Shown: one piece after another, positions 13,747 through 15,315 of the stretch | Position numbering within the stretch: position 1 is the stretch's first letter | Layout: every line of letters begins with the position of its first letter | From: Methanocellales archaeon | Lineage (GTDB): Archaea; Halobacteriota; UBA148 | Direction: 5' to 3' | Assembly: GCA_030019435.1 (NCBI GenBank) | Contig: JASEEV010000002.1 | Coordinates: forward strand, 61,147-110,301 | DNA: 49,155 bases | Program-made: the position numbers and the translations under genes | The notes under the pieces: generated by a model | The model's database searches: none | Told to the model about the DNA's origin: nothing | The model's input: the letters and a program-made list of their open reading frames with translations, nothing else

Positions 13747-14910
13747 TTATAATAGGCATCTTAGATCCCAAAGGAGCTTTGGATTGCGCATGATCATCTC
13801 TTTCAACAACCCAAATGCCGTCATCTCCTCAAAGTTAATTCCTCTCAACGAGGAGGCTAGAGAGTCCCATTCAGCATCGCTCAGTTTTAAAAGCCTTTCT
13901 TTGGCCTTGTAGGATTTCTGGAGGGTTGCACCGATGGTTGAGCGCCAGCGCCTTTCATATTCCGCCAAGCGTTCAACGGACGCATCTCCTGATTTTATCG
14001 CCTTCGCTGCAACTTCACCGGCGATCTCTCCAGATTTCATCGCATGAACAATTCCTCCGCCCGTAAGAGGGTCTGCCATCCTGGCAGCATCACCCACGAG
14101 CATTAGTCCGTTTGTAGTAGTCTTGGTGGGGATGCCGACCGGCACTCCGCCCATGATCATTTCGATGATCTGCCCATCTGGATACCTTCTCTCTACGAAA
14201 CGTTTTAGATATTCGATGGGATGCATCTCTGCTCTGCTCCCCAATATTCCAACGCCCACGTTTGCCTCTTTCTTGCCCTTTGGGAAAATCCATGCATATC
14301 CACCTGGTGCAAGTTGGTTACCGATATAGAACTCGCAATAGTCTGGATCAATGTCAACGTCGGTCATCAGAAATTGGGCACAGGTTTCGATGTCCTTTAG
14401 CCTAAGGGTCGTGTTGATGCCAGCCCATCTTCCCACTTTCGATTCGATGCCATCCGCACCAATCACGATGTCCGCCCTCATCGCAAACGAATCTCCCAGA
14501 TGCTCGGCTTTGACGCCTCTGACGAAGCCGTTCTCTTTAATCAAACCGATTGCCCTTGTTTTTACCATTACTTCTGCACCAACTTTTGCCGCCTGCTTTG
14601 CAAGCTCTCGATCGAACATCTTTCGCTCGAGAACATAACCAACCTTTGCAATCTCTGACATCTCGATCTTTATGCCGCTGGGAGAGTATATCCTCGCCCC
14701 TTTGACATCTGCAGCAATCCAACGCTTATCTGGCTTTATGAATTGCTTTACTCCTTCTTTGCCCACCCCTTCTGCACATCTGACTGGATCGCCGATTTCT
14801 GCCCTCTTTTCCATCAAGAGTACGTCTAAATCGTGCTCAGCAGCAGTCTTTGCTGCTATGGATCCTGCTGGACCAGCACCTACAACAATGAGATCATACC
14901 CGTCTCTCAT
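13747..14910 (-). CDS. Geranylgeranyl reductase family (archaeal lipid saturation)
   Basis: A 387-aa flavoprotein with the dinucleotide motif GAGPAG at 11-16, then EKRAEIGDPVRCAEGVG and the second FAD motif LMLVGDAARMADPLTGGGI. This matches digeranylgeranylglycerophospholipid reductase, which saturates the isoprenoid chains of archaeal lipids at the membrane. In Methanosarcina the enzyme needs a ferredoxin encoded next to it. Here a two-cluster ferredoxin lies directly upstream on the same strand. A GGAGG site precedes ATG 14910. The gap between the two genes is filled by an array of hairpins. Confidence 0.93.
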   Translation of the reverse strand: MRDGYDLIVVGAGPAGSIAAKTAAEHDLDVLLMEKRAEIGDPVRCAEGVGKEGVKQFIKPDKRWIAADVKGARIYSPSGIKIEMSEIAKVGYVLERKMFDRELAKQAAKVGAEVMVKTRAIGLIKENGFVRGVKAEHLGDSFAMRADIVIGADGIESKVGRWAGINTTLRLKDIETCAQFLMTDVDIDPDYCEFYIGNQLAPGGYAWIFPKGKKEANVGVGILGSRAEMHPIEYLKRFVERRYPDGQIIEMIMGGVPVGIPTKTTTNGLMLVGDAARMADPLTGGGIVHAMKSGEIAGEVAAKAIKSGDASVERLAEYERRWRSTIGATLQKSYKAKERLLKLSDAEWDSLASSLRGINFEEMTAFGLLKEMIMRNPKLLWDLRCLL

Positions 14911-14925
14911 TTTGCCTCCATTTAC

Positions 14926-15158
14926 AAGGAGAAACTACGTTTCTCCCTTGACCTTCGAGGGACTTCGTCCCCTCGACCCCTAGGGGTTTCGAAAAACCAC
15001 AGATCAAAGATCTGTGGGTGCTCACATTTCGGAGAAATGTGAGTGTTCGCATTCCCTTCGGGGAATGGAACAGCTCGCATTTCTTCAAAATGGAGCAGGA
15101 CAGAAACCTTTAGGTTTCTGGGCACAGGAAATCTTCGATTTCCGTGGGGTGAAGCCCC
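14926..15158. repeat. Array of about ten short hairpins
   Basis: Consecutive inverted repeats, each with a different stem sequence: 14928-14946 (8-bp stem), 14955-14976, 14977-14986, 14985-14998, 14997-15017 (perfect 9-bp stem, AAA loop), 15021-15043 (perfect 10-bp stem, GGA loop), 15050-15067 (CATTCCC-TTCG-GGGAATG), 15073-15096, 15101-15120 (CAGAAACC-TTTA-GGTTTCTG), 15127-15143 (GGAAATC-TTC-GATTTCC) and 15146-15158. From the 15007 to the 15135 centres the spacing is regular, 24-27 bases. The array fills the ferredoxin-reductase gap and runs into the ferredoxin frame. Confidence 0.85.
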
Positions 15159-15315
15159 TTCGGAGTGCGCCAACCGGACATATCTTAGCACAAACGCCGC
15201 AATCATTGCATTCCTCGCTGATCTCAATCCATGCCTCGATCAGCTCTACTGCATCCATGGGACAGACGGCAACACAGGCGCCGCAGTACCCGCATTTGTG
15301 CTTATCGACGATCAC
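15085..15315 (-). CDS. 2x[4Fe-4S] ferredoxin with array-encoded tail
   Basis: The 76-aa frame starts at GTG 15315, the only usable start after an in-frame stop. It has two cluster motifs, CGYCGACVAVCP and CNDCGVCAKICP. The conserved part ends near residue 52 (GALRR). The last 24 residues are read from the hairpin array, and the stop at 15085 lies inside one hairpin. The protein is the likely electron donor to the reductase downstream. The tail is probably a later addition and may be harmless. A mis-assembled or interrupted 3' end is the other explanation. Confidence 0.85.
   Translation of the reverse strand: MIVDKHKCGYCGACVAVCPMDAVELIEAWIEISEECNDCGVCAKICPVGALRRGFTPRKSKISCAQKPKGFCPAPF

Follow-up and report, generated by a model that had tools for sequence, protein, structure and literature searches.

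Why should an array of about ten distinct hairpins lie between a ferredoxin gene and a geranylgeranyl reductase gene? This question was raised by positions 14926–15158 of the window, that is, of the whole 49,155-nucleotide stretch of a Methanocellales archaeon that was analysed. When 14900–15200 was folded, its energy was −134.3 kcal/mol on the plus strand (z = −9.5) and −132.2 kcal/mol on the minus strand (z = −7.0), and none of the 100 dinucleotide shuffles was as stable on either strand. The array was also the most stable 233-nt window of the 49 kb on both strands, at 50% GC (all windows, step 50). The segment contained eight perfect stems of 5 bp or longer, with centres at 14937, 14965.5, 15007, 15032, 15058.5, 15085, 15110.5, and 15135, compared to a mean of 1.56 and a maximum of 5 in shuffles. 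Two weaker hairpins, CCCCTAGGGG at about 14977–14986 and GGGGTGAAGCCCC at 15146–15158, bring the total to about ten. The hairpins announced in the original prediction are thus real, and the spacing of 24–27 bases between centres from 15007 to 15135 is exactly as described there. The statement that no two stems share sequence was not quite right, as the segment 15019–15097 matches its own reverse complement at 80%; several hairpins are thus nested in one larger palindrome, which is the form used in the lowest-energy folds.

Alignment of this gap with related genomes showed that the array has been inserted. The ferredoxin/reductase junction was empty in six relatives' sequences (L009, L010, L011, L074, L078, and L081), which represent at least four genomes, since some are one genome taken from two collections. 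The reductase is 80–82% identical to those of the closest relatives (Methanocellaceae archaeon UBA148 and Methanocellales archaeon). In relatives, the ferredoxin ends, for example, in ...GGTGCACTGGGGGCAAAATGAGAGA, and its stop codon overlaps the ATG of the reductase. In the window, 244 nt (14919–15162, a wider segment than the one first delimited) sit between GGCGCACTC and GAGGCAAAATGAGAGA, three codons ahead of the ferredoxin stop. Reading through the insert adds to the ferredoxin a tail of 25 residues, RRGFTPRKSKISCAQKPKGFCPAPF, followed by a stop, so that the predicted entry into the ferredoxin frame was correct and the tail of about 24 residues was one short. The insert also separates the ferredoxin stop from the reductase start, and the overlap is lost. 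Its removal in silico restores the frame GGC GCA CTC GAG GCA AAA TGA. An assembly error at this site is unlikely, because the two flanking genes adjoin each other in the relatives. The parts of the element and the neighbouring genes are as follows:

14919–15162, minus strand: inserted hairpin-array element of 244 nt, reading CGAAGGGG...CTCCTTGTAAATG in the sense direction, between ferredoxin codon 51 (Leu) and GAGGCAAAATGA; defined by the empty junction in relatives.
14928–14946, minus strand: terminal hairpin unit U1, GGAGAAAC-GTA-GTTTCTCC, the unit with the widest spread; supported by covariation.
14955–14976, minus strand: hairpin CGAGGGGACGAAGTCCCTCG, also present in the MBF1 (L049) and L048 copies.
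14977–14986, minus strand: short palindrome CCCCTAGGGG, recognised from its sequence.
14997–15017, minus strand: hairpin CCACAGATC-TTT-GATCTGTGG; in copies L041 and L036, additional hairpins are nested within its loop.
15019–15097, no strand: larger palindrome holding the hairpins centred at 15032, 15058.5, and 15085; supported by the inverted self-match and the minimum-energy folds.
15101–15120, minus strand: hairpin CAGAAACCTAAAGGTTTCTG, part, with the hairpin that follows, of a 65-nt block that recurs at 93–98%, mostly in tRNA introns.
15127–15143, minus strand: hairpin GGAAATCGAAGATTTCC.
15146–15158, minus strand: terminal hairpin unit U2, GGGGCTTCACCCC, lying at the element's 5′ end in the sense direction; equivalents occur in tRNA introns.
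15085–15315, minus strand: ferredoxin ORF with a GTG start (2x4Fe-4S), the final 25 residues being encoded by the insert.
13747–14910, minus strand: geranylgeranyl reductase family gene, whose ATG overlaps the ferredoxin stop in relatives and stands apart here.

Pieces of the array matched 34 places in the organism's own genome, including blocks of 130–206 nt at 91–96% identity, and a 70-nt basic form gave 41 matches. Of the two origins first proposed, inserted or expanded, insertion stands, and local expansion does not fit a dispersed repeat family. The core palindrome of U1, GAAACNNNGTTTC, had 22 exact sites in the genome versus one for a reversed control pattern. From a reading of their surroundings, ten of these sites lie in tRNA introns (for one, only the 3′ half of the tRNA was detected), four in spacers of tRNA clusters, three in intergenic regions, one in the 23S rRNA gene, and four inside or at the end of protein genes, encoding the ferredoxin, a DUF7411 ATPase, an ABC ATPase, and an MJ1316 protein. 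tRNA genes make up well under 1% of the genome, yet their introns hold 10 of the 22 U1 sites. The long copies mostly split tRNA genes (Lys, Met, Gly, Gln, Thr, Asn, Cys, Ser, and several Leu, the insert being in the D-loop region in the split tRNA-Leu genes), and blocks of 65–206 nt at 91–98% identity are common to different, non-homologous tRNA genes. Further arrays, for which a search of the genome and its relatives had been proposed, were thus recovered by sequence, and their main location, tRNA introns, had been missed by the first reading. The orientation of copies is uninformative, because U1 is a near-perfect palindrome and is flipped in some tRNA copies. As the catalogue of copies rests on BLAST and pattern matches together with fetched stretches, diverged copies may be missed. 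Several of the 87 contigs of this draft genome end inside the repeat, and array lengths and some tRNA neighbourhoods may thus be mis-assembled.

Individual copies differ in their architecture. At L041 3200–3330 and L036 4890–5080, growth is nested, with more hairpins inside the loop of the CCACAGATC/GATCTGTGG hairpin, and at L048 2750–3030, tandem copies with a 20-nt flank, TGCGATAAGTTTATTGCTCC, lie upstream of a gene, the middle of the stretch being masked as N. At L036 3680–4250 (G000:C11:125.7–126.3 kb), two tRNAs, one of them Asn-like, are represented by their 3′ halves only, which are joined to element arrays; for comparison, an identical tRNA-Met and spacer lie beside an intact tRNA-Asn on contig C18 (L071). 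The two half-tRNAs may be genuinely split genes or the product of chimeric assembly at the repeat. Elsewhere in the genome, the Transcription factor B gene (L039 3861–6431, minus strand) apparently carries an intein of several hundred residues.

The tRNA genes were scanned for the bulge-helix-bulge (BHB) motif, defined as an outer helix, a 3-nt bulge, a 4-bp helix, a 3-nt bulge, and an inner helix. In tRNA-Lys, Met, Gln, Asn, and Cys, a canonical BHB encloses the element at position 37/38, and joining of the exons restores the anticodon arm. The ends of the element, CRAAGG...CCTTYG, can pair to form the inner helix of this splice motif, and in tRNA-Lys the inner helix, CCAAAGG/CCTTTGG, consists of the element's own ends. 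For Gly, Lys-TTT, and several other tRNAs, the scan gave no clean canonical motif, and splicing at these genes is presumed because the tRNA must be functional. An EndA splicing endonuclease of 373 aa with two fused PF01974 domains is encoded in the genome. It is thus probable, judging from sequence motifs, that the element-bearing tRNA introns are spliced out by EndA. In the fetched stretches, which were partly chosen for the element, 19 of 38 tRNA genes contained introns, some in the D-loop. One tRNA-Ser gene (L055 2960–3330) apparently has two introns, in the D-loop and in the anticodon loop, which is unusual for a euryarchaeon. Introns in the D-loop region of tRNA-Leu (L037, L047, and L051, and L176 and L178 in G005, a genome of another family) are common to families of the order.

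Copies outside tRNA genes are of a different kind. Compared with G001, in which the site is empty and the flanks are 98% and 95% identical, the 23S rRNA gene carries a clean insertion of about 75 nt. Copies that remain in frame and lack stop codons interrupt MBF1, the MJ1316-domain protein (the MJ1316 Pfam profile of 75 positions spans 100 residues in the interrupted protein), and the linker of the ABC ATPase; this is what would be expected if these mid-gene copies are translated. The ABC-ATPase and 23S copies are antisense to their host genes. A CBS-domain protein (L040 2990–3110) and the ferredoxin (window 15085–15162), two unrelated proteins, have near-identical C-termini encoded by the element, RRGFTPRKSKIS(W/C)AQKPKGFCP.

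This distribution bears on whether the array in the ferredoxin gene could be an archaeal mRNA intron, spliced by EndA to restore the ancestral end ...GAL-EAK. The same blocks occur in BHB introns of tRNA genes, EndA is present, and removal of the insert restores the frame, all of which agree with such an intron. However, the scan detected no BHB at the junctions of the ferredoxin, ABC, MBF1, MJ1316, and 23S copies, and those of the CBS and DUF7411 gene ends had weak motifs only, matched by 10% and 2.5% of shuffles, respectively. Splicing, moreover, would not require the mid-gene protein copies to be in frame and free of stops. We thus consider an mRNA intron very unlikely, and the ferredoxin copy, lacking a BHB at its junctions, is probably not spliced. 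A regulatory RNA specific to this operon, controlling the reductase through translation coupling or mRNA stability, would account for an array placed exactly between two genes, where it replaces the stop/start overlap. The relatives' operons nevertheless lack the array, its blocks recur in unrelated tRNA genes, and the Rfam search returned no family at gathering score, the only hit being a miRNA family far below it, so that no known structured RNA was recognised. Recurrence of the blocks elsewhere led us to reject a single-locus regulatory RNA, and we regard control of this operon as extremely improbable.

Conservation of pairing was analysed in 17 distinct copies of the terminal hairpin. Paired bases occupied 92.8% of cells, double changes were found in 18 cells versus 6.6 in shuffles (0 of 500 had as many), and the covariation score was above those of all 500 shuffles and of all slid versions. 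The claim that pairing is kept while sequence varies is thus upheld by matched changes in the stems between copies. The suggestion that structure matters in the mRNA shared by ferredoxin and reductase found no support, as relatives lack the array and its blocks are also present in tRNA introns; the structure seems to belong to the element rather than to the operon. The paired changes may reflect selection on RNA, selection on DNA structure, or templated repair of palindromes.

Related genomes were also inspected. The in-frame copy in the ABC ATPase is also present in two genomes of another family, and in G006 a tRNA-Ser intron contains a hairpin closely related to the terminal one. In other genera, the introns of the corresponding tRNAs hold different content. 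G005, a single contig, contains a different hairpin family with nine matches, all located in tRNA introns according to our reading, two of them in Leu tRNA genes without an ARAGORN call. In a third family of the order, hisD of G006 carries a related copy in frame, and the Histidinol_dh profile matches the protein in two stretches. From these copies, hairpin-rich content shared between tRNA introns seems to be recurrent in the order, with occasional escape of the intron hairpins into other genes.

Taken together, these results make it quite probable that the array, at 244 nt, is a long member of a family of short hairpin elements, dispersed and modular, that resides in tRNA introns and spills into other genes. 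More tentatively, the hairpin cores of tRNA introns in this order may be mobile elements that encode no protein, are modular and sheltered by splicing, move into rRNA and in frame into proteins, and belong to independent hairpin families in different taxonomic families; we hold this broader proposal to be possible, with doubts slightly outweighing our confidence. Inside tRNA genes, the element would be removed along with the intron by EndA, which would make it nearly harmless and allow it to accumulate there. Copies would occasionally be pasted elsewhere and kept only where tolerated, whether at the end of a gene, in a linker, in a variable loop of rRNA, or at a position that preserves the reading frame. 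The copy in the window would have landed three codons before the ferredoxin stop, giving rise to the 25-residue tail and replacing the stop/start overlap with structured RNA. Growth would proceed by the addition or nesting of hairpins and by the copying of whole blocks between loci. The likeliest route, and the one we prefer, is copying at the DNA level, either by template switching mediated by the hairpins or by gene conversion among copies.

Neither a transposase nor a reverse transcriptase could be tied to the element, and no clear target-site duplication was seen by eye at the 23S and ferredoxin copies. Movement of REP/BIME- or PATE-like elements by an IS200/IS605-type (Y1) transposase acting on single-stranded hairpins would be in line with a mosaic of palindromes, with the Y1 genes of this genome (one intact, one interrupted by masked sequence), and with the CCTNNAGG core that the IS end hairpins share with the array unit CAGAAACCTTTAGGTTTCTG. 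The IS ends otherwise differ, though, and REPs, being extragenic, do not share the placement in tRNA introns and inside genes. Y1 was not found in most relatives nor in G005, which is near-complete and has nine matches of its own family; it was on this ground that we rejected IS200 Y1 as a general driver, and this route is, overall, unlikely. Mobility at the RNA level, in which excised intron RNA, possibly circular, would be reverse-spliced, copied to DNA, and recombined, could explain why, in two families, copies lie mainly in tRNA introns and why the ends of the element form a BHB inner helix. It is given very little likelihood, since no reverse transcriptase was found in this 94%-complete genome, the non-tRNA targets have no BHB, and the ABC and 23S copies are antisense. 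A viral origin was likewise discarded: the only matches to the U1 pattern on viral contigs were two, by chance, without the element.

For the question of how archaeal introns arise and spread, this genome is of interest, many of its tRNA introns being filled by a shared hairpin element. Related genomes with empty sites offer a natural system for catching the transfer and for asking if splicing protects selfish DNA.

Several known systems resemble this family in part. Rickettsia palindromic elements (RPE) are short repeats of palindromic form that occur within protein genes, where they keep the frame, and at other sites. In-frame insertion is shared (ABC ATPase, MBF1, MJ1316, and hisD in G006), a likeness by description, whereas the present elements are archaeal, form a mosaic of many distinct hairpins, and are found mainly in tRNA introns. 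Mitochondrial double-hairpin elements and yeast GC clusters are proliferating GC-rich hairpins that enter RNA and protein genes; those described here differ in occupying an archaeal chromosome and in being linked to tRNA introns. REP, BIME, and REPIN sequences, associated with RAYT, are also dispersed mosaics of short palindromes, but they consist of one or two types of extragenic palindrome, while here many stems occur inside tRNA, rRNA, and protein genes and are not mainly extragenic. A Y1 transposase is present here, and none was found in G005, a genome with a hairpin family of its own; no dedicated RAYT was seen. When compared to MITEs, the element has short ends, CRAAGG/CCTTYG, with no duplication by eye and no parent transposase found.

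The closest parallels are archaeal. With BHB introns of tRNA, rRNA, and cbf5 mRNA, the tRNA copies share the cut site in five tRNAs, but the rRNA and protein copies have no BHB, and the element contains no homing endonuclease. Transposition of tRNA introns is known from Thermoproteales (a 2010 study, as cited in PMC4090602), its mechanism was called unknown in that 2014 review, and a mobile-element origin has been proposed for a tRNA intron (PMC3293823). As far as the review relates the Thermoproteales case, near-identical introns in non-homologous tRNA genes are shared with it, and sites at 37/38 and in the D-loop were seen here. In contrast, the host here is a euryarchaeon, the introns contain modular hairpin arrays and exceed 200 nt, and copies without a BHB lie outside tRNA genes (ferredoxin, 23S, ABC, MBF1, and MJ1316), contrary to the rule that copies settle only where a splice motif can form. 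Euryarchaeota were described as having introns in fewer than 10% of tRNA genes, single and at the canonical site (PMC4090602), a picture that fails for this genome. No description of such an element was found in the literature searched, most subscription journals lying outside it. Transposition of tRNA introns is itself known; the hairpin-array form, the spread beyond tRNA genes, and the euryarchaeal host appear to be new.
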